Part shown: piece after piece, positions 8,142-48,042 of the stretch
Layout of the letters: each line of letters begins with the position of its first letter
Position numbering within the stretch: the first letter of the stretch is position 1
NCBI RefSeq assembly: GCF_024178165.1
Contig: NZ_JAMZIE010000003.1
Coordinates: forward strand, 372,001 to 436,000
DNA: 64,000 nt
Direction of reading: 5' to 3'
Source: Halohasta salina
Lineage (GTDB): Archaea > Halobacteriota > Halobacteria > Halobacteriales > Haloferacaceae
Program-made: the position numbers and the translations under genes
The notes under the pieces: model-generated
The model's database searches: none
Told to the model about the DNA's origin: nothing
The model's input: the letters and a program-made list of their open reading frames with translations, nothing else

Positions 8142-8333
8142 ATGTCACAATCGGATGCAAGCAATGCTAGGAGAACTATGATTGCGACCACGACTTCAGC
8201 CGGTATCGCGCAAAAGTGGTTTCGATCACGAGGGGCAGCAGTGAGTGATCTTGACAGTGATAGACAACCAGAACGGATCAACAATCACGACTGTGAACCT
8301 TTCACTGACCGGCAAGTGCGGGGGTGGGGGTAA
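8142..8333 (+). CDS. Hypothetical basic protein (63 aa)
   Basis: Begins MSQSDASNARRTM and has a short basic stretch (KWFRSRG) and a polar C-terminus. The ATG is 8 bases after GGAG, which lies in the loop of a hairpin; a GTG at 8133 in frame is an alternative. The stop overlaps the next ATG (TAATG). No family recognised; the gene's interest lies in its structured leader. Confidence 0.5.
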   Translation: MSQSDASNARRTMIATTTSAGIAQKWFRSRGAAVSDLDSDRQPERINNHDCEPFTDRQVRGWG

Positions 8334-8524
8334 TGTCCGAAGCTCAAGGACGGACACCGCTCGAAGACGCCACCGACGACCGCGAAGATGCTGTGCGAGC
8401 ATGGGCGGCCGAGTACGTCCAAGACGCTCGTGTGGAGTTGATAACTGATGAATTCGCGGACATAGAGCAGGCCAAGCGGGATCTAAGGGCTGCACTACAC
8501 GTACTCGAAACAGAAATAGAGTAG
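8333..8524 (+). CDS. Hypothetical helical protein (63 aa)
   Basis: Acidic, mainly helical (EDAVRAWAAEYVQDARVELITDEFADIEQAKRDLRAALHVLETEIE read in parts), lacking Cys or membrane segments. Translationally coupled to the preceding ORF by a one-base overlap. Possibly an antitoxin-sized or adaptor protein, but nothing in the sequence proves a partner. Confidence 0.5.
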   Translation: MSEAQGRTPLEDATDDREDAVRAWAAEYVQDARVELITDEFADIEQAKRDLRAALHVLETEIE

Positions 8525-14474: not shown

Positions 14475-14825
14475 ATGAGTAGCCTCGGCGATACGCTACG
14501 CAACCGGTTTTTGAACGCACAAAACCGAATCGAGTGGGCCGATCTCGCTGGTGCAGTGACCGGAGCGGTGACGCTCCAATGGTTCCGCGGCGGGGCCGGC
14601 ATTCCGCTCGGCATCGGTCGGGGAATCGGACGTGTCTTCGACGGGATCTCGTCGAGCATCAGTGACGGCGTGTCGCTGTTGTCGACAACACTGGTGAATC
14701 AGGCTGATGCAGCGTTCGGGCCGGCGGATTTCGGAGTGTTTTCGCTCCCGGTTTCGCTGGTGCTGATCCTCATGAGCATTGCTATCGTCGTTATCGGATT
14801 CCAGCAGGTGGTTTTCGATGAGTGA
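14475..14825 (+). CDS. Small membrane protein (116 aa)
   Basis: The basic N-terminus (MSSLGDTLRNRFLNAQNRIEW) resembles an amphipathic membrane-facing helix. It is followed by a Gly-rich hydrophobic region and a strong C-terminal helix, FSLPVSLVLILMSIAIVVIGF. ATG at 14475 is preferred to a GTG at 14463. It overlaps the next gene by 8 bases. Confidence 0.6.
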   Translation: MSSLGDTLRNRFLNAQNRIEWADLAGAVTGAVTLQWFRGGAGIPLGIGRGIGRVFDGISSSISDGVSLLSTTLVNQADAAFGPADFGVFSLPVSLVLILMSIAIVVIGFQQVVFDE

Positions 14826-29843: not shown

Positions 29844-30106
29844 GCACCGACCAGCAGGAACTGGCGAGTGGTGTCGACGGGAAGCGGGTCGACTGCTGTC
29901 CCAACTGCGGGTCGACTCGGCAACTCTCTCGTCGCGTGCCGTCATCGCCGCTCTCGCCGCACGACGACTCGGCCGACAAGTATCGGTGTGGAGCGTGTCG
30001 GTGGACTGGCGACAGCCTCGACGAGCGACCAGCGCAGCAGAGTTCGGGGAACGTCCACGGGACTGCTGAGAAGCTGCTGAAAGCCAACGCGGAGGACTGG
30101 CCATGA
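29840..30106 (+). CDS. Zinc-ribbon protein before the integrase (88 aa)
   Basis: From ATG 29840: CCPNCGSTRQL and, 25 residues later, YRCGACRWTG, a classic two-CxxC ribbon; C-terminus polar. Overlaps the integrase ATG by four bases, so it is co-translated with the integrase and may act as an excision or directionality factor. That role is inference from position. Confidence 0.6.
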   Translation: MSTDQQELASGVDGKRVDCCPNCGSTRQLSRRVPSSPLSPHDDSADKYRCGACRWTGDSLDERPAQQSSGNVHGTAEKLLKANAEDWP

Positions 30107-31155
30107 GCGACGCGCCGGACCTCTCGCCACAGGAGGCAGTCGACCGCTGGCTCGATCGGGCCTCACTCGATCGGGCTGCCCAGACGATCGCGGGCTACCG
30201 GGGACAACTCCGGCACTTCGTTCGCTGGGCGAACAGCGAGGGCATCGACTCGGTTGCCCAGCTGGACCCGTGGGACATCGAGACCTTCGAGACCCACCGT
30301 CGCGGGAACGATCTCGCGGCGATCACGCTGCGGAACGAACTCGGGACGCTGCGGCAACTGCTCGACTACTGCGCCCGGATCGGCGTGGTCGACGATGAAC
30401 TGCCGGAGTCGATAGAGTTGCCGAAGGTGTCGGCCGACGACCAGACCGACGAGACGATTCTGGAACCGCATCGTGCCAAATCGTTATTGGATGTCTACCG
30501 GAACGGTGACGAGGACTATCCACGCGGCCATGCCTTCCTCGAATTGGCGTGGTACACCGGGGCGCGGATGGGCGGACTGCGAGGCCTCGATCTCGGTGAC
30601 GTCGACTTCCAGGAGGGATTTGTTCGCTTCCGGCATCGACCGGAGACAGGGACGCCGTTGAAGAACGCCTACGACGGCGAGCGCGTCGTCGGGATCAGCC
30701 AGCCAGTCGTTGATGCACTCACCGACTACGTTGCTGAGGACCGTCCCGATGTCACCGACGATCATGGTCGACAACCGCTGTTCGCCACGATGCACGGCCG
30801 GATTAGCCTGAACGTGCTACGGACGAGCTGTTACTACGCGACGATCCCGTGTCGGTTTCGATCCTGTCCGCACGGGAAGGACCGCGACAGTTGTGACTGG
30901 ACGACTCAGGCAGATGCATCGAAGTGTCCGTCATCACGGTCGCCACACCAGATCCGCTCAGGATCGATTACGTGGCAGCTTGACCGCGGCCTGCGGGCCG
31001 ACGTTGTGGCCGAACGAGTTAACGCGAGCGTCGAGATCATCGAACAGCACTACGATCAAGCATCGGATCTCGCGGCCTATGAGAGACGCCGTGAGAAGCA
31101 TCTGAGCAAACTCGGATTTCAGACAGAAGATGACAACGAGGAGGAAACAGCATGA
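30103..31155 (+). CDS. int: Tyrosine integrase of the element (350 aa)
   Basis: A full-length phage-type tyrosine recombinase. A SAM-like N-terminal core-binding domain (residues 10-100, QTIAGYRGQLRHFVRW) precedes the catalytic domain with Arg155 (YTGARMGGLR), His282 and Arg285 (PHQIR) and nucleophile Tyr317 (EQHYD). A Cys-rich insertion near 250-275 (CRFRSCPHGKDRDSC) is like those I recall from haloarchaeal integrases. It ends 12 bases before the attR repeat and is the last gene of an overlapping operon. It should catalyse integration into, and excision from, the tRNA-Val 3' end. Confidence 0.92.
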   Translation: MSDAPDLSPQEAVDRWLDRASLDRAAQTIAGYRGQLRHFVRWANSEGIDSVAQLDPWDIETFETHRRGNDLAAITLRNELGTLRQLLDYCARIGVVDDELPESIELPKVSADDQTDETILEPHRAKSLLDVYRNGDEDYPRGHAFLELAWYTGARMGGLRGLDLGDVDFQEGFVRFRHRPETGTPLKNAYDGERVVGISQPVVDALTDYVAEDRPDVTDDHGRQPLFATMHGRISLNVLRTSCYYATIPCRFRSCPHGKDRDSCDWTTQADASKCPSSRSPHQIRSGSITWQLDRGLRADVVAERVNASVEIIEQHYDQASDLAAYERRREKHLSKLGFQTEDDNEEETA

Positions 31156-39572: not shown

Positions 39573-40535
39573 ATGTCTTATACGTACATCAGACGACTGC
39601 GCCGCGCAGCACCGACACCCGTTTTGAGCGCTCCGCGTGCTGGGTTCGCCGACACGAGTGGCAGCCGTGCGGACGGTGCGCAGTCGACCGCGGCTGGTGA
39701 GGGGACCGTCGACCGTCGACTGCTCACTGATGGCGGCGAGGAGCGTTCCGAATCCGAGGCCGAGGGTAGTGAGGGCGGCGACGAGGAGATGCAACAATCC
39801 GAACAGGGAGACGCCGGCGAGGAGCAGTCCGAGGTCGAAGGCGACGAGGGAGGGGGCAGCGATACCGAGATGGCACCCCCCGAACCGAAGGGCGAAGCCG
39901 GTGTCGAAGAGGCTGAGGCGGAAGCCACCGAGGAAGAAGAGGCCGAAGAAGCAGCACCCGAGGAGGCGGAAGCCGAACGACCAGCGGCCGAGGAGGAAGC
40001 CCCCGAGGAGGCCGAGGAAGGAGAGACAGTCGACGTCCCCCAGAGCGATGTCGAAAGCGTGGGCGCGACGGACGACGAGAGTACGACGGTCCTGTTTCTC
40101 GATCTCTACGGGTTGGACCTCGACCTGCTCGGGCTCGAAATCGAACTCCATCAGCTCGTGTTGGACGTGTTTGCGACCGAGGGTGACGGGAACCTGTTGG
40201 GGAACCTGCTGTCGGCGGTCGCCGGGCTCACCGACCCCGGTGGGCTGTCGGATCTGTTCCCCGAGGCCTCGGATCTGCTTCCCGAGGGTGGCCTCTCGGG
40301 GCTGCTCCCCGGTGGCGGCTCGATCAAGAACGCCCTCGGTCTCGGCGGGGGAGAAGACGACGGGGAGGGAGCGGAGTCCGGCGGATTCGTTTCCTCGGCA
40401 GCCAGCAGCCTCCGGGAGTCGGTTCCCAGCGTACCGATCAAACAGCTCCTGATCGAGGTGATCGCCGGGGTCATCAAACAGTTGCTCGAATCACCCGAGA
40501 AGGAGGCCGAGGACGCCTCCGGTGAGGGGACATGA
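39573..40535 (+). CDS. Acidic gas-vesicle-locus protein 1 (320 aa)
   Basis: Short basic start (MSYTYIRRLRRAAP), then about 120 residues of extremely Glu-rich low-complexity sequence. A folded part follows: TTVLFLDLYGLDLDLLGLEIELHQLVLDVFA, GNLLGNLLSAVAGL, Gly/Leu-rich repeats, and an end helix VPIKQLLIEVIAGVIKQLLE. The LLGNLLSAVAGL segment resembles a domain I recall from uncharacterised bacterial and haloarchaeal proteins. First of four genes joined by overlaps and convergent with gvpO. It may coat vesicles or act as a scaffold; unproven. Confidence 0.65.
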   Translation: MSYTYIRRLRRAAPTPVLSAPRAGFADTSGSRADGAQSTAAGEGTVDRRLLTDGGEERSESEAEGSEGGDEEMQQSEQGDAGEEQSEVEGDEGGGSDTEMAPPEPKGEAGVEEAEAEATEEEEAEEAAPEEAEAERPAAEEEAPEEAEEGETVDVPQSDVESVGATDDESTTVLFLDLYGLDLDLLGLEIELHQLVLDVFATEGDGNLLGNLLSAVAGLTDPGGLSDLFPEASDLLPEGGLSGLLPGGGSIKNALGLGGGEDDGEGAESGGFVSSAASSLRESVPSVPIKQLLIEVIAGVIKQLLESPEKEAEDASGEGT

Positions 40536-40879
40536 GCGAGACCAACGGGCGGATCGACTACCGTCGACTGGTCCGGGATATCGATTACGCCAGCGCCGTC
40601 GAGGGCACCCGCTTCGAGCAGTACACCGGCGACACCGAGGGCGGTCTCGGCAGCGTCTTGGGTGGCTGGCTCGGGGCCATCCTCGGCCGGTTCGTCGGCA
40701 TGGCACTGGGGCAGGTGGCCCAAGAACTGCTGGTCGACGAACTGTTCGGCGGTGAGGAAGACACAGAGCCCGCTGTGGAGGCGGAAGGCGGCGAGACTGG
40801 GGCGGGCGAGACAGCCGACGAGGGAGGCGACACGTCGGTCGACAGCGATGCGGACTCCCCGGAGGCGGATGCGGAATGA
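40532..40879 (+). CDS. Gas-vesicle-locus protein 2, glycine-rich amphipathic (115 aa)
   Basis: A polar N-terminus (IDYRRLVRDIDYASAVEGTRFEQYTG) is followed by LGGWLGAILGRFVGMALGQVAQELLVDELFGG, an amphipathic glycine-zipper-like helix pair, and a 40-residue acidic tail. The helix could contact membranes or the hydrophobic vesicle wall. Coupled to both neighbours by ATGA overlaps. No family recognised. Confidence 0.6.
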   Translation: MSETNGRIDYRRLVRDIDYASAVEGTRFEQYTGDTEGGLGSVLGGWLGAILGRFVGMALGQVAQELLVDELFGGEEDTEPAVEAEGGETGAGETADEGGDTSVDSDADSPEADAE

Positions 40880-41490
40880 GCGGGTCCGACACGCTCGAAC
40901 TGATCGAGGAGAACCTTCCGGAGGGGTTTCGAGACGACCTCCGGGAAAGCGACCTCGGCACGCAGGTCGGTGGGAGCTACGGTGAGCAGGCGGGCCGTCA
41001 GCTCGGCCAGCAGATCGGCACGACGGTCGAACGACGGTTTCGATCTAGACTCGATGCTGGCACAACAGTCTGGCGGGCACTCGTCGCTGCGTTTGAGGCC
41101 CTTCCGGCGGCGATACTCCACGCGCTACGTGAGAACGCCTCTCCCCGCAGGGCCGTCTCGAACCTCAAATCACAGCTCGAAACCGAAGCGAAATCGCTCG
41201 TCAGTAACGCGGAAGCCGAGGCCAGTGGGGCCGCGACGGGGGCCGCCGACGCGTCGACCGAGAGAGCTGACTCGGTGCCCGGACTGCCGGACAACGTCTC
41301 GAAGCTTCGTGAGGAGACGATCCGTGACCTGCTGGGGGTGATGTCGTACCGCGAGCTACAGTCGACCGCCAAGGAACTCGGCGTCACAGCCAACCGGAGC
41401 CGCGAGGCGATCGTCGAGGACGTCGTCGAGCAGGTCTCGGGCGGTGACGACGCGGAACACAAGGCGGCCGAGGGGGACGCCGAGTCCTGA
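40876..41490 (+). CDS. Gas-vesicle-locus protein 3 with C-terminal SAP/Rho-N-like motif (204 aa)
   Basis: The N-terminal half has GSYGEQAGRQLGQQIGTTVERRFRS, a helical region similar in style to the glycine-rich helix of the preceding protein. The C-terminal 55 residues (LRDLLGVMSYRELQSTAKELGV...REAIVEDVVEQV) fit a helix-extended-helix like SAP or Rho N-terminal domains, which bind nucleic acids or proteins. Its stop is followed directly by the next ATG. Role in gas vesicles is inferred only from position. Confidence 0.6.
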   Translation: MSGSDTLELIEENLPEGFRDDLRESDLGTQVGGSYGEQAGRQLGQQIGTTVERRFRSRLDAGTTVWRALVAAFEALPAAILHALRENASPRRAVSNLKSQLETEAKSLVSNAEAEASGAATGAADASTERADSVPGLPDNVSKLREETIRDLLGVMSYRELQSTAKELGVTANRSREAIVEDVVEQVSGGDDAEHKAAEGDAES

Positions 41491-41491
41491 G

Positions 41492-42271
41492 ATGGGAGCC
41501 AACACCCAACAGCAGGTCGACGCACTGCTGGCCGACCTCGCTGCGACGGTCGACCCCGAGCAGCCGACCGGCGACGCTGACCCATCCGACCCGGAGGAAA
41601 TCGGTGGGATTGCCGACCGGGCCGACGAACTCCTGTCGTCGACCGCGCTCTCGGCCGTTGCGGCTGCGACGGGGCTCGGCGACGGGACCGACCCCTCGTC
41701 GTCGGTGCCGAAAGCCATCGCCACGGGCGATCCGAAGGACGTTGCGGCGCTCCGGGCGCTGCTCACGCTGGCGAAGCTGTCGACTGCTGACGACGACCGG
41801 GCCGACGAACTCGTCTCGGAACTGGCGTCGCTCGTCGAGACCGCACAGCTTTCCCCGGCCGAGGAGCGGACCAACGACGCTGCGGCTACGGTAGATGCTG
41901 AGACAATTGACGCTGCTGAGACAGCCGACGGTACAGCGGCCGACGAGGAGTCATCTCTCCGAGAGCGGCTGCAGTCACAGCTCGACGAGACCCAAGCCCT
42001 CTTCGACGGACTGCCAGCAGATGGGCTTACCGAGGGAAGCGACGGGGCCGATTCCGGTACGGAACCGGGCGGTGACGACGCGGAGCCGGGTACCGAGACG
42101 GAGGACCAAGCGGTCGACCAGTCGACCCGGTCCCGCGATGGCACGCGGTGGCGGCCCGGCGGCGGACAGCGATCGATCCATTCGACGGTTCCGGGAGCCG
42201 GTCGACGGGATATCGGCCGCCGCCCCGGTCGGTTGTCGACGATGCGTGGGTCGACGGTCTCGAACCGGTAG
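41492..42271 (+). CDS. Gas-vesicle-locus protein 4 (259 aa)
   Basis: Helical and acidic (QQQVDALLADLAATV, PKDVAALRALLTLAKLS, ELVSELASLVETAQLS), ending in an Arg-rich tail with HSTVPGAGRRDIGRRPGR. A similar tail, VSTVPRGVRH...RRRIYGRR, is present in the 324-residue protein between gvpH and gvpJ, and both have long Leu-rich acidic bodies. The two may be distant paralogues. ATG 41492 is used; the frame opens further upstream inside gene 3. It ends 5 bases from the convergent gvpO stop. Confidence 0.6.
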   Translation: MGANTQQQVDALLADLAATVDPEQPTGDADPSDPEEIGGIADRADELLSSTALSAVAAATGLGDGTDPSSSVPKAIATGDPKDVAALRALLTLAKLSTADDDRADELVSELASLVETAQLSPAEERTNDAAATVDAETIDAAETADGTAADEESSLRERLQSQLDETQALFDGLPADGLTEGSDGADSGTEPGGDDAEPGTETEDQAVDQSTRSRDGTRWRPGGGQRSIHSTVPGAGRRDIGRRPGRLSTMRGSTVSNR

Positions 42272-42276
42272 CCGTC

Positions 42277-42939
42277 TCACTGCTGGCTGGGGCCGGTGTC
42301 GCCCCGTCGGTACTTTTCGAGCCGCCGGTAGCCGATGACCTCGCCGCTTTCGTCGAGTTCGATCTCGTACTGGCCGAGGATGTCCTGTGTGTCGGGCACC
42401 GATCGGCGCTCGATGATCTCGACGACTGCGCGCCACGAGTCGTCGGTCCGTGAGACCTCGACGATCCCATCGAGACTGCGGCCGATCACGTCGGTCGACA
42501 GCTCGATCACCTGATTCCTGACCTCGATGATGCTCGCCGTGTCGCCCTCGCCATCCGGTGAGGACGCCGATTCGCCGTCCGCTCCGGCACGCTCGGCGTC
42601 GCGCTTCTCGTCCGGTCGGGGTTCGACACCGACATCGCCTGTCTGTTCGGCGACCGCCTCCTCGTCGGCGTCGGCCTGCGCGGGCTCCGAAGGCGTCGCC
42701 TCGTGTTCCTCGCTTTCGTCGTGTGCTCGGGCTTCCTGCGCGTGGGTATCCTCGCCGGTGTCAGTCGACTCGGACGCCGAGTCGGGCTCGGACGTCGGCT
42801 CCGACTCGACTTCGCTCGTCTCCTCGGGGTGGTCCCGTTCGGCGGCCTGCTCGGTCTCGGAGCCGCCATCCGTGCGTACGACTCTCCTGTTGGTCGTGTT
42901 CGGTTCCTCGGTGTCGTTGCCTCCGGTCTCGTGTACCAT
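42277..42939 (-). CDS. gvpO: Gas vesicle protein GvpO
   Basis: The C-terminal 100 residues (ASIIEVRNQVIELSTDVIGRSLDGIVEVSRTDDSWRAVVEIIERRSVPDTQDILGQYEIELDESGEVIGYRRLEKYRRG, read in parts) are the GvpO domain. The N-terminal 115 residues are acidic low-complexity, longer than the roughly 120-residue halobacterial GvpO. GvpO is one of the eight proteins needed for vesicle formation in Halobacterium. It lies 79 bases after gvpA and is probably co-transcribed. Confidence 0.85.
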   Translation of the reverse strand: MVHETGGNDTEEPNTTNRRVVRTDGGSETEQAAERDHPEETSEVESEPTSEPDSASESTDTGEDTHAQEARAHDESEEHEATPSEPAQADADEEAVAEQTGDVGVEPRPDEKRDAERAGADGESASSPDGEGDTASIIEVRNQVIELSTDVIGRSLDGIVEVSRTDDSWRAVVEIIERRSVPDTQDILGQYEIELDESGEVIGYRRLEKYRRGDTGPSQQ

Positions 42940-43018: not shown

Positions 43019-43303
43019 CTACGTTGCCTCGGGGTACTGTGCCTGCGTCGCGGGCGTCCGGCGGATTTCGAGGTTCTCCAGATCCTCCAGACTCCCCTCC
43101 TCGGTCACCTCTTCGATCTTCGATATCTCGGCGGCGTAGTGGAGGAACGTGTCGACCGAGGCCACCACGACCCGCGCCTCGATGGTGAGGATCTCGATCC
43201 CGACGACCGAAATCCGCGCCCAGATGTCGATGACGACTCCCTTGTCGAGGATGCGGTCGAGCACGTCCGCCAGACTGTCCGCACCGGGTCGGTCTGATGC
43301 CAT
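43019..43303 (-). CDS. gvpA: Gas vesicle structural protein GvpA
   Basis: The main ribbed-wall protein. The signature [48 protein letters not shown] (in parts) is nearly invariant in GvpA. With 94 residues it exceeds the usual 76-79; the extra length is in the tail after TEEGSL. It diverges from gvpF, and the region between them holds both promoters. An AGGAG ribosome site lies about 12 bases before the ATG. Confidence 0.96.
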
Positions 43304-43561: not shown

Positions 43562-44191
43562 ATGAGTTCGAACCGCTACACCTACGGCGTCATCGAGCAG
43601 GCACCGCTCGATATCGACGTGACGGGCGTCGACGGCGCGCCGATCGACACCGTCGACTACCGGTCGCTGTCGGCGGTCGTCAGCGAGATCGGAACGATCG
43701 AGCCCGAGCGAACCGACGAGAACGCCGCCGCCCACGACGAGGTCCTGCGTGCGGTCCTCCAGTCGGACGGCGGCCGGACGATCATCCCGATGCGGTTCGG
43801 AATGGTATTCAAAACCGAGAACGCACTCAAAAACGTCCTCCGCAACGGGCGCGTCGCGTTCCGGCGGTCGCTCAACGATCTCGACGGGATGGTCGAACTG
43901 GGGGTCAAACTCGTCGCCAAGGAGGGATCGACCGTCGACCGTCGCGCGGTCGTCGAGGACGTGGCCACACGACTCCGCGCGGTCGCCGACACCGAAGCGG
44001 GCAACGATCTCTACAGCGACCGGCTGGTGTTCAACCGGGCGTATCTCGTCGACCGCGCCGATCAGCCCGCCTTCGAGGAGACGGTCGCGGCGATTCGAGA
44101 CGCCTACGACGACTCGCTGCTCGTCCAGTACAACGGGCCGTGGGCCCCCTACAACTTCGTCGACATCGAGATCGGCGCGGAGGGTCGCTGA
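43562..44191 (+). CDS. gvpF: Gas vesicle protein GvpF
   Basis: GvpF/GvpL family, 209 residues. It opens RYTYGVIEQAP, has PMRFGMVFKTENAL in the middle and ends NGPWAPYNFVDIEIG, the closing motif of the family. It is a minor wall-associated protein that binds GvpA and is essential for assembly in Halobacterium. First gene of the gvpFGH-JKLM operon; its stop overlaps the gvpG ATG by one base. Confidence 0.93.
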   Translation: MSSNRYTYGVIEQAPLDIDVTGVDGAPIDTVDYRSLSAVVSEIGTIEPERTDENAAAHDEVLRAVLQSDGGRTIIPMRFGMVFKTENALKNVLRNGRVAFRRSLNDLDGMVELGVKLVAKEGSTVDRRAVVEDVATRLRAVADTEAGNDLYSDRLVFNRAYLVDRADQPAFEETVAAIRDAYDDSLLVQYNGPWAPYNFVDIEIGAEGR

Positions 44192-44442
44192 TGTTCGTCA
44201 TAGACGACCTGCTGATCAACCCCGTCGTTTCGATCCTCGAAGGGATTCATTCGATGGCGATCAGCGAGCTGTACGACACCACCGAGATCAAAAACGAGAT
44301 CAAGGAAAACAGACTGCTGTACGAACTCGGCGAGCGGTCGGAAGCCGAGTACGAACGGCGGAACGGGGAACTCGAAGCACAGCTCGAAATCGCGCGTGAA
44401 GCACACGAACAGACACGCGGTAAAGTCGAGGTCATGCGATGA
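44191..44442 (+). CDS. gvpG: Gas vesicle protein GvpG
   Basis: An 83-residue helical protein: MFVIDDLLINPVVSILEGIHSMAISELYD, then a charged coiled coil (EIKNEIKENRLLYELGERSEAEYERRNGELEAQLEIAREA). This is typical of GvpG. Required for vesicle assembly in Halobacterium as an accessory protein. ATG 44191 is used, coupled to gvpF. Confidence 0.92.
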   Translation: MFVIDDLLINPVVSILEGIHSMAISELYDTTEIKNEIKENRLLYELGERSEAEYERRNGELEAQLEIAREAHEQTRGKVEVMR

Positions 44443-44939
44443 CAGATACACACCCACCACCTGACGACCGAGATACCGATCAGCCCCGATCAGATGACTC
44501 TCACTCCGGAGGGGGCGGTATCTCGGGACTGCTCAGACAGCTTCTGGACACGCTCCAGCGACTCGACGAGTCCGGCCGCTCGGTCGAGCGTGGTCGAGGT
44601 CGTCGACGGGCCGGCGAGACGGCGTTCGAATACGAGTACAGTGTCAATATCGGGCTCGGCGGGGATGACACGGCCGACAGCGCCGAGCCGGACCACCCGG
44701 TTCGTGTTCAAGAGACACTCGACGGCGCGAGTGTCACAGTCGACCTCCCGGCGGTCGACCCCGAGACGCTCCGGGCCGGTGTGGACGGTCGACGGCTCGT
44801 GGTGGCGGCCGACGACGAGCGGCTGGCGCGGGTCACGCTTCCTAAGGCGGACTATACGGTCCGAACTGCCACCTACAACAACGGGGTCTTGGAGATCCGG
44901 CTGGCAGGCGGCGATTCGGAGGTGACAGTCGATGACTGA
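44439..44939 (+). CDS. gvpH: Gas vesicle protein GvpH (Hsp20-like)
   Basis: The N-terminal half is polar with GGGGISGLLRQLLDTLQRLDESGRS. The C-terminal 100 residues have a small-heat-shock alpha-crystallin character: FEYEYSVNIGLGG, VTVDLPAVDPETLRAGVDGRRLVVAADDERLARVTLP, NNGVLEIRL. This agrees with GvpH, a chaperone-like regulator that stabilises other Gvp proteins and is dispensable in Halobacterium. It overlaps gvpG by four and the next gene by eight bases. Confidence 0.88.
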   Translation: MTDTHPPPDDRDTDQPRSDDSHSGGGGISGLLRQLLDTLQRLDESGRSVERGRGRRRAGETAFEYEYSVNIGLGGDDTADSAEPDHPVRVQETLDGASVTVDLPAVDPETLRAGVDGRRLVVAADDERLARVTLPKADYTVRTATYNNGVLEIRLAGGDSEVTVDD

Positions 44940-45906
44940 CTCCGAGGAGGGGCTGCTCGACGTGGAGGCCGTCGACGATCTCGGCCTCGACGACGTCGAC
45001 AGCATCGAAGCGCTCGATACGGACGCCCTCCCGAATGCCAGTGAGCTCGATCTCACACAGCTCGGTCCGCTTGCCGAGTTGGCGATCTCGGTACTCGAAT
45101 CGGTGACGGAGGGCGAGGACGACCCGGCGGCGGGGAAGCTACAGGCCCTCTTGCACCTCGTCTCTCTCATTCAGGGCGTTCTCGAGACGACCGATACCGA
45201 CGAACTGCTCGCTACGCTCGACCTCGACGAACTCGACGAGGTTGTCGACCTCGACTCGCTGCCCGAGGCGCTCGAATCCGGCGAGATCGGCGATGCGGTC
45301 GAACTCGAGAACCTGCGCAAGCTCATCGAGTTCGGTCAGCTCTGGCAGACGGTCGACCTCACCGAACTCGTCGGGTCGAAAGACGAGATCCGCGAGACCG
45401 TCGACTCACTCGCCGGCGACGATGGCAACGGCGACAGAGGGCTGCTCGACGGGCTGGAGATGCAAGATCTCACCGGTGGCGGCGACAGCGAGATCGCCGA
45501 CGGGCTGACCGACCCCGAGATGATGCAGGCAGCGACACAGGCCCAACTCGAACGGGAAATCGAGGGGTTTCGGGAGCGGTTAGTCGAAACCCACGCCCGC
45601 CTCGACGAGCTTCGTGACGCGAACGAACGGCGGTTTGCCGGCGCCGACCAGCCGAGTTCGCGGAATCCTACGGCCGTCTCGACGCTGACGACCCACACCG
45701 GTCCGCCGAGCGACGCCTCACAGGTCTCGACGGTGCCACGGGGCGTGCGCCACTCGACGGGACCGAGCCGCCGCCGGATCTACGGTCGACGGTTCGACAC
45801 ACTCATAGCAGAAACACAGGCCACCGACGCCGAGGCCGACGAACAACCGGTCGACAACGAGGAACCGAGCGACAACGCGGCTGATGAGAGGGGTGAGGAT
45901 CGATGA
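44932..45906 (+). CDS. Large acidic protein in the gvpI position (324 aa)
   Basis: Position between gvpH and gvpJ is that of gvpI, but GvpI of Halobacterium is about 144 residues and basic. This protein is 324 residues and very acidic, with repeats of Leu-Asp-Glu character (DLDELDEVVDLDSLPEALESGEIGDAVELENLRKLIEFG) and a helical stretch QAQLEREIEGFRERLVETHARLDEL. An Arg-rich part STVPRGVRH...RRRIYGRR near 265-285 resembles the tail of the protein at 41492-42271. It may be a much expanded GvpI or a replacement. Overlaps with both neighbours show co-translation. Confidence 0.6.
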   Translation: MTDSEEGLLDVEAVDDLGLDDVDSIEALDTDALPNASELDLTQLGPLAELAISVLESVTEGEDDPAAGKLQALLHLVSLIQGVLETTDTDELLATLDLDELDEVVDLDSLPEALESGEIGDAVELENLRKLIEFGQLWQTVDLTELVGSKDEIRETVDSLAGDDGNGDRGLLDGLEMQDLTGGGDSEIADGLTDPEMMQAATQAQLEREIEGFRERLVETHARLDELRDANERRFAGADQPSSRNPTAVSTLTTHTGPPSDASQVSTVPRGVRHSTGPSRRRIYGRRFDTLIAETQATDAEADEQPVDNEEPSDNAADERGEDR

Positions 45907-46373
45907 GCGGCGCTGGCCCGATGCGGAAGAAGGACTCACTCGCCGATGTCGTCGAGATGCTGCTGGACAAGGGGATCGTCGTCAACGCCGACATCATCGT
46001 CACCATCGGCGAGACCGAACTGCTGGGCATCCATCTCCGGGCGGCGATCGCCTCCTTCGAGACGGCCGCCGAGTACGGCTTGGAGTTCCCAGACGGCACC
46101 GACACCGACCGGATCGAGGAGATCACGGGTCGACGGAACAGTCTCGAAACGATCCGGGCGACCAGCGGCGAGCCGGACATCGTCGACGAGTCCGACGAAA
46201 CGGCGACGTGGACCGTCCGCCCGCCGGTGGTCGTCCGCGAAGACGCCGCCGCAACGCGGCCACCGGACGACGAATCGGACGCGACGGCTGCCGAGGCCAC
46301 TGATGCGGGCGAATCGTCGTCCGAGGATGACGCCGAGACAGCCACAACGGAGGAATCGGATGGAAGCGATTAA
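45903..46373 (+). CDS. gvpJ: Gas vesicle protein GvpJ
   Basis: GvpA-family protein: SLADVVEMLLDKGIVVNADIIVTIGETELLGIHLRAAIASFETAAEYGLEFPDG, followed by a polar acidic tail of 80 residues. GvpJ is a minor homologue of GvpA, needed in assembly and possibly located at the tips. A Met at 45921 is an alternative start. Overlaps gvpK by 14 bases. Confidence 0.93.
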   Translation: MSGAGPMRKKDSLADVVEMLLDKGIVVNADIIVTIGETELLGIHLRAAIASFETAAEYGLEFPDGTDTDRIEEITGRRNSLETIRATSGEPDIVDESDETATWTVRPPVVVREDAAATRPPDDESDATAAEATDAGESSSEDDAETATTEESDGSD

Positions 46374-46767
46374 TCTCGACGGCGACGAGGCGAGCGACGG
46401 ACTGTTGGCGCTGGTGATCGCGGTCGTCGAACTCCTGATCGAGGCGCTCGAAGGCGAGGCGATCCGCCGGATGGAGTCGGGGTCGCTGACTGACGAGGAG
46501 ATCGAGCGACTCGGCAGCCAACTCGCGGCGCTCCACGAGGAGGTCGACCGGCTGAAAGCCGACACCGAACTCGAAGACGACGTCTCACAGCTCCGAACCA
46601 GCCTCTCGGATCTCGTCGAGGACGCCATCGAGCGCGTCGACGACGAGCCACACCCCGGATTCGCGTTTCTCGACGACGCGAACACGCCGTCGCCGGAGCA
46701 CTCCGAGCCGCCGGATCAGCCGGCCCAACCCGACCAATCACCGACCTCGTCGGAGGGCGAGGAATGA
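46360..46767 (+). CDS. gvpK: Gas vesicle protein GvpK
   Basis: The 135-residue protein contains LLALVIAVVELLIEALEGEAIRRMESGSLTDEEIERLGSQLAALHEEVDRL, the conserved GvpK core, with an acidic extension. ATG 46360 is inside the gvpJ end; the longer frame is a shadow of gvpJ. Essential accessory protein in Halobacterium. Confidence 0.92.
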   Translation: MEAINLDGDEASDGLLALVIAVVELLIEALEGEAIRRMESGSLTDEEIERLGSQLAALHEEVDRLKADTELEDDVSQLRTSLSDLVEDAIERVDDEPHPGFAFLDDANTPSPEHSEPPDQPAQPDQSPTSSEGEE

Positions 46768-47600
46768 CCGAAATCGACCAGGGACGGTATCTCTACTGTC
46801 TGGTTTATCTCCCGTCGGCGGATTACGTCGCCGACCCCGACTGGTCGACCGAGGGCATCGCGGACGAACCGGTCTCGGTCGTCACCGCCGGAGACGTGGG
46901 TGCGGTCGTCCACGCCTGTGATTCGCTGTACGATACCGACGACCCCCAGACGATCCAGCAGTGGCTGTTGAGCCATCAGCGGGTCGTCGACGAGGCGAGC
47001 GAGGCCTTCGGGACGCCGATCCCGTTCCAGTTCGATACGATCCTGACCGGCGGCGACGAGGCGCTGGCCGACTGGTTGGAGACCGAGTCCGACCGGCTCG
47101 AACCCGAACTCTCGGCACTGGCTGGCCACCGGGAGTATCGCGTGGAGATCACCCATCACGAAGACGCTCGCTCGGAGATCACCGCGGCCGACGAAGCGTT
47201 GTCGACGCTCCGCCAGCGGATCGACGACGCCGACTCGGGGACCGCCTATCTGCTCGAACAGCAGTACGAAACGGAGATCACCAAACGGCTCCGCCAGCAC
47301 CGACGGCAGCAAGCCCGGTCGATTGCGGATCGGATCGCCCCTCACGTCGCAGCGCTCGAATCGCTCGGCACCCGCCGATCGACGGGCGTCGACATCGATA
47401 CCGGCCGCGAGGACGAGCCCGAACCGATCGCCCGGTTAGCCGTGCTGGCGACCGACGAGGGAGCCGACGCGCTGGGCGAGGAACTCGACTCGGTTGCCGC
47501 CGAGCCGGGTGTCGAAGTACGGTTTACCGGGCCGTGGCCGCCGTACACGTTCGCCCCGACAATCGACAGTCAGGGAGGAGGGGATGGAGCCGACCGCTGA
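46764..47600 (+). CDS. gvpL: Gas vesicle protein GvpL
   Basis: GvpF/GvpL family, 278 residues: GRYLYCLVYLPSADY at the start, PIPFQFDTIL in the middle, LEQQYETEITKRLRQHRRQQARSIADRI and the ending FTGPWPPYTFAP. GvpL contacts most other accessory Gvp proteins and is essential in Halobacterium. Overlaps gvpK by four and gvpM by 17 bases. Confidence 0.93.
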   Translation: MTEIDQGRYLYCLVYLPSADYVADPDWSTEGIADEPVSVVTAGDVGAVVHACDSLYDTDDPQTIQQWLLSHQRVVDEASEAFGTPIPFQFDTILTGGDEALADWLETESDRLEPELSALAGHREYRVEITHHEDARSEITAADEALSTLRQRIDDADSGTAYLLEQQYETEITKRLRQHRRQQARSIADRIAPHVAALESLGTRRSTGVDIDTGREDEPEPIARLAVLATDEGADALGEELDSVAAEPGVEVRFTGPWPPYTFAPTIDSQGGGDGADR

Positions 47601-48042
47601 CTCCGAGGACGTGATCGTCGACCTGCTGGACGTGCTGCTCGAAAAGGGGGTCGTCCTCGAAGCCGACGTCGTCATCGGGGTCGCCGATATTCCGCTGGTG
47701 GGGATCAAACTGCGGGCCGCGATCGCGGGGCTGACGACGATGCGTGAGTACGGCATGTTCGAGGAGTGGGACCTCCAGCAGCGCCGTCAGCGACGGTCGC
47801 ACCAACCCATGCCGGGTGGCTCGATGACCGGTCGACCGAACCCACGGCGACCGCGTGATCCCGAGACGGAGCCGACTGTGGCCAGCGGTCGACCCGCCGA
47901 GAGTAGCCGTCCCGACGGGTCGGCCCGCCCGCGCCACCGTGATCGGCCGGCCGAAACCCGTCGACCGGCTGGCCAGTCGGAGGACGCGCCCGTATCCGAA
48001 ACCGACGGTGAGGCGCGGGCGGAGACGCCCGAAGAGGAGTAG
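47584..48042 (+). CDS. gvpM: Gas vesicle protein GvpM
   Basis: GvpA-family protein: VIVDLLDVLLEKGVVLEADVVIGVADIPLVGIKLRAAIAGLTTMREYGMFEEW in the first 70 residues. A basic and proline-rich tail of 75 residues is longer than the 84-residue halobacterial GvpM. Last gene of the operon; ATG 47584 is used. Confidence 0.92.
   Translation: MEPTADSEDVIVDLLDVLLEKGVVLEADVVIGVADIPLVGIKLRAAIAGLTTMREYGMFEEWDLQQRRQRRSHQPMPGGSMTGRPNPRRPRDPETEPTVASGRPAESSRPDGSARPRHRDRPAETRRPAGQSEDAPVSETDGEARAETPEEE

Follow-up and report, generated by a model that had tools for sequence, protein, structure and literature searches.

The window analysed here, a stretch of 64,000 nucleotides, carries at 39573-42271 four co-directional genes on the forward strand, named B1 to B4, which end convergently beside a gas vesicle (gvp) gene cluster. 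The coordinates of all genes and features are given in Table 1. A codon model, for which the window and related sequence served as training data, scored all four open reading frames as coding, and a comparison with genomes of the same genus showed purifying selection on each of them, with dN/dS values of 0.14-0.44 for the set and of 0.14-0.23 for B1. An earlier note on this DNA had described a four-gene operon of overlapping genes separated from gvpO by 5 bp. The operon and the gap were both confirmed, with the gvpO stop at 42277. The overlaps were confirmed in part: B1 shares 4 bp with B2, as does B2 with B3, and the ATG of B4 at 41492 lies 1 base past the B3 stop, so that B3 and B4 would overlap only if B4 started at an upstream GTG. 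Scans of B1 to B4 against Pfam, NCBIfam and PHROG gave nothing above cut-off.

The neighbouring cluster is of the same GvpC-less kind as those of Natrialba magadii, Haloterrigena turkmenica and others. No GvpC match was found in the window genome with a haloarchaeal GvpC profile (E ≤ 0.001), and no GvpN above the family cut-off. Clusters without GvpC have been noted previously (PMC3403918, PMC4390858), and that of N. magadii is also described as lacking GvpD and GvpE (PMC3403918). Elsewhere in the window there is a tRNA-Asn at 14642-14734, and the segment 12543-31155 contains short forward-strand open reading frames without known function, the last of them integrase-like (30103-31155); judged by eye, this segment could be a provirus.

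Table 1. Genes and features of the B operon and the adjacent gvp cluster
Feature	Coordinates	Strand	Description
B1	39573..40535	+	320 aa; acidic N-terminal half, conserved Leu/Gly core, C-terminal amphipathic helix
B1 core domain	40089..40250	+	VLFLDLYGLDLDLLGLEIELHQLVLDVFATEGDGNLLGNLLSAVAGL; common to secreted bacterial proteins
B2	40532..40879	+	115 aa; short, acidic, with glycine zipper
B2 glycine zipper	40649..40711	+	G40, 44, 48, 52, 56, 60
B3	40876..41490	+	204 aa; glycine-zipper helix, helical middle, SAP-like end
B3 glycine zipper	40957..41019	+	G28, 32, 36, 40, 44, 48
B3 C-terminal domain	41293..41454	+	Predicted SAP-like three-helix domain; residues 140-193, pLDDT 92-96
B4	41492..42271	+	259 aa; paralogue of long GvpI; Arg-rich tail with ST[MV] repeats
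B4 Arg-rich tail	42128..42271	+	STVP...STM; resembles GvpI tail
Gap	42272..42276		5 bp separating the stop codons of the convergent genes B4 and gvpO
gvpO	42277..42939	-	PF05800, E 7.7e-27
gvpA	43019..43303	-	PF00741
gvpF	43562..44191	+	Named from gene order and family clustering
gvpG	44191..44442	+	Named from gene order and family clustering
gvpH	44439..44939	+	PF05455, E 4.9e-11
Long gvpI (X5)	44932..45906	+	324 aa; B4 paralogue
gvpJ	45903..46373	+	NF046090, E 2.6e-39
gvpK	46360..46767	+	Named from gene order and family clustering
gvpL	46764..47600	+	Named from gene order and family clustering
gvpM	47584..48042	+	PF00741

Proteins encoded by the B operon

The descriptions previously given for the first three proteins, namely an acidic protein with a Leu/Gly core (B1), a glycine-zipper-like protein (B2) and a protein with a SAP/Rho-N-like end (B3), were upheld, the last as a SAP-like fold. 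B1 contains 25% Asp plus Glu, with a pI of 4.05, and its Leu/Gly core is conserved. The structural model of this core comprises four strands and a helix and is of low confidence (pLDDT 60), too weak for a fold search. Bacterial proteins with this core, mostly secreted-looking, come from Actinobacteria, a Bacillus relative and planctomycetes; in Nocardioides, Mycobacterium, Salipaludibacillus and planctomycetes the core is up to 55% identical to that of B1. The actinobacterial proteins differ from B1 by leader-like segments at the N-terminus and by cysteines both inside the core and on its flanks. The bacterial B1-core loci scanned (up to about 12 kb long) contained no gvp genes, and five of the bacterial relatives gave no match when scanned against Pfam. 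Since the secreted bacterial proteins with the core have no gvp genes nearby in these loci, it is the domain, and not the operon, that extends beyond gas vesicles. Eight bacterial loci with the core were recorded, and in the planctomycete proteins it is present as repeats.

B2 carries six glycines spaced exactly 4 residues apart, and B3 also has a zipper of this type. Across both families the glycine runs at period 4 have a median of 7, and runs of at least 4 arose in 2-3% of shuffles, with 3% for B2. Cross-matches among B1, B2 and B3 in a first iterative search were attributed to these common zippers and to acidic stretches, and separate profiles for the three proteins were used thereafter, with three aberrant loci excluded. 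The C-terminal end of B3 is predicted to adopt a SAP-like fold similar to the SAP domains of 3'hExo, DEK, Tho1 and SIZ1: a Foldseek search with the model placed SAP domains among the best matches, with an rmsd of 0.8-1.5 and E > 1 in every case. Unlike the known domains, it has no Pfam SAP match, and there are no data on nucleic-acid binding. Sequence searches of the PDB with the B1 and B3 profiles returned low-complexity or chance matches only.

Similar ends were also seen in other proteins. Two uS3-like ribosomal proteins (L250 4223-5170 and L251 4362-5330) end in the SAP-like motif of B3, and a tail-sheath-like protein (L249 4617-6353), which may belong to a contractile injection system, has a SAP-like insert resembling the B3 end, so that the presence of this end in B3 is no proof of DNA binding. 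The two uS3-like proteins belong to gvp-negative genomes (G021 and G217) in which the B3 profile had given matches; after reading the loci, these were rejected as true B3.

The earlier note had also considered that none of the four proteins is a known Gvp, which did not hold for B4. Alignment of B4 with long GvpI, near full-length, gave an hhalign probability of 99.6% (E 9e-24 over 243 columns), and the two share an Arg-rich tail with a double ST[MV]P motif; B4 is a GvpI paralogue and thus of known Gvp lineage, its closest known relation being GvpI of Halobacterium and Haloferax. The likeness of this tail to that of a protein inside the gvp operon had been noticed before and was confirmed, the partner being the long GvpI. 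Two or more ST[MVLI] motifs lie within the last 70 residues in 51 of 55 B4 proteins. The identity of the 44932-45906 protein itself rests on its C-terminal half, for which a match to the canonical short GvpI was obtained at each of 8 GvpC-type loci (E 1e-15 to 1e-18), which makes it a long GvpI. B4 differs from GvpI in three respects: the C-terminal signature RIYGRRF, present in the 44932-45906 protein, is missing; B4 is acidic (pI 4.07), whereas canonical GvpI is reported to be very basic (PMC7688916); and it is encoded in another operon and not between gvpH and gvpJ, the position held by the long gvpI. There is also a third gene for a long GvpI-like protein, seen at eight loci that are not linked to gvp; in several of them it adjoins a pdxS-like gene.

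Distribution, linkage and loss in Halobacteria

Using PF00741 we detected gvpA in 119 of 292 sampled Halobacteria genomes. The B1 profile (E < 1e-3) matched 95 of these 119 genomes and none of the 173 gvpA-negative ones (Fisher 2e-54), so that the check proposed in the earlier note, a phylogenetic profile against gvpA, was passed. With labels shuffled within families, for the 224 genomes with a listed family, log10 P was -16. The P values for the B1 associations are inflated, because genomes related by shared ancestry are not independent. A search with B3 gave matches in 82 of the 292 genomes.

Of the 60 haloarchaeal loci examined, the majority keep the order B1-B2-B3-B4, and B4 was found at fewer loci than B1 (49 vs 76). 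Beside B3 in two genomes of one genus B4 is missing and the fourth gene encodes an AI-2E transporter; the supposed B4 of two loci was removed, being actually such a transporter. The operon lies far from gvp in most genomes. By coordinate comparison, 19 of the 95 genomes with B1, spread over six families, have it no more than about 6 kb away from a gvp gene. At three loci belonging to two families, the gvpF-M operon itself contains B genes, with gvpH on one side and the long gvpI on the other.

Twenty-four gvp-positive genomes lack B1; GvpC was detected in 12 of them, and neither protein in the other 12. One genome in which B1 went undetected (G192) keeps B2-B4, in another (G156) a B2-like gene adjoins gvp, and in six others no B3 was found either. 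Given that several gvp-positive genomes are without B1, GvpC and B3, the B set is not universally required.

The distribution of B1 is nearly exclusive with that of GvpC. Clear GvpC (E < 1e-10) was present in 13 of the 80 gvp-positive genomes tested, and B1 occurs in 1 of these 13 vs 55 of the remaining 67 (p 5e-7). The sole genome with both, G005, gave six matches to the GvpA family and two to GvpN, which implies two gvp clusters; a GvpC-type cluster, a GvpC-less cluster and the B operon are seen there together. GvpN, present in 41 of the 80 genomes, does not show such a pattern with B1. It remains possible that the near-exclusivity of B1 and GvpC mirrors two cluster lineages and not a replacement of one by the other.

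A case of loss was found in genus g25, in the gvpA-negative genome G092. The genes flanking the operon share 87-94% DNA identity with those of its relative G034, and between them, at the syntenic site, the operon is reduced to fragments of about 0.6 kb in all. The third, unlinked gvpI paralogue is likewise cut down to a remnant at its syntenic site (L255, near 8305-8436). From these remnants, gvp, the B operon and the third gvpI paralogue were apparently lost in the same lineage.

Proposed function and alternative explanations

The earlier note had suggested a new accessory set for gas vesicles, and this is supported by the co-occurrence with gvpA, the proximity to gvp in a minority of genomes, the joint decay in one lineage and the GvpI ancestry of B4; on these grounds B1-B4 very likely constitute a gas vesicle accessory module. 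Considering that B1 is confined to gvpA-positive genomes and that GvpC is nearly always missing where it occurs, the operon also very probably belongs, though overlooked so far, to a second type of gas vesicle system in archaea. In its specific form our reading is that B1-B4 are the accessory module of gvp clusters that lack GvpC, GvpD and GvpE and carry a long GvpI, to which we assign a probability of roughly 0.6; the zipper periodicity and the purifying selection on the four genes also favour it. The B operon is not mentioned in the passages of PMC3403918 and PMC4390858 bearing on GvpC-less clusters, nor in the literature searched, which was mostly open-access and covered few subscription papers.

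That this module acts on the shell or its assembly, and in GvpC-less systems sets the shape or strength of the vesicles, is a proposal for which the odds appear slightly below even; the mechanism is inferred, and no experiment puts any B protein on a vesicle. The B proteins would act at the GvpA shell or at its assembly complex. B2 and B3 may oligomerise via their glycine-zipper helices, B1 would give a hydrophobic surface-binding core, and the acidic stretches would face outwards. B4 is envisaged to dock the B proteins to the GvpH/F/L complex in the manner of GvpI, which binds GvpH, F and L and whose deletion leads to extremely long vesicles (PMC7688916). As a result, the module would stand in for GvpC in controlling how strong, wide or long the vesicles become. 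GvpC is thus the proposed shell counterpart of the module, in line with the nearly exclusive distributions, and its deletion gives long, weak vesicles (PMC7688916); no GvpC match was obtained at the B genes. The roles in shell coating, clustering or anchoring put forward in the earlier note are likewise inferences only, without data on any of them.

The alternative that survives best is that the module positions vesicles and does not build the shell: the SAP-like end of B3 would bind DNA or another cell component and the zippers, together with B1, would hold vesicles together, serving clustering, anchoring or inheritance. This is possible, and in its favour are the SAP-like fold, the suitability of zippers for oligomerisation and the lack of linkage to gvp in most genomes, as expected of an add-on. 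Against it, SAP-like ends are not particular to B3, as the ribosomal and tail-sheath-like proteins show, and the location of B genes inside the gvpF-M operon in three genomes better fits a role in assembly. A regulatory function, with B3 and its partners replacing GvpD and GvpE, appears unlikely. SAP domains often bind nucleic acids, and gvpDE are reported absent from GvpC-less clusters (PMC3403918, PMC4390858); however, three of the four B proteins show no DNA-binding feature, B2 and B3 have long glycine zippers, and B4 is paralogous to GvpI, an accessory assembly protein. An indirect association, in which the operon serves some other trait tied to the habitat of gas-vesicle bearers, could draw on its usual separation from gvp and on the B1 core of secreted bacterial proteins, but is very unlikely in view of the absence of B1 from all gvp-negative genomes, the B genes located within gvp operons, the B4-GvpI homology and the decay at separate loci in G092.

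Returning to B1-B4 as an accessory module of GvpC-less clusters, the proteins would furnish gas vesicle engineering with new parts for the shell or its assembly. The co-inheritance of a mostly unlinked operon of new families with these clusters suggests that their known gene list is incomplete. Species with GvpC-less vac regions are reported to be Vac- in the laboratory for unknown reasons (PMC4390858). This counts against our reading, and it is a puzzle that the B operon makes testable. A bolder reading, which we regard as a possibility only, is that GvpC-less clusters, long GvpI paralogues and the B operon together build a different GvpA-walled structure. This may be small, coated or tethered and no flotation organelle, with the B proteins needed for it. 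If true, such a structure would explain why these strains are Vac- despite the persistence of their gvp genes.
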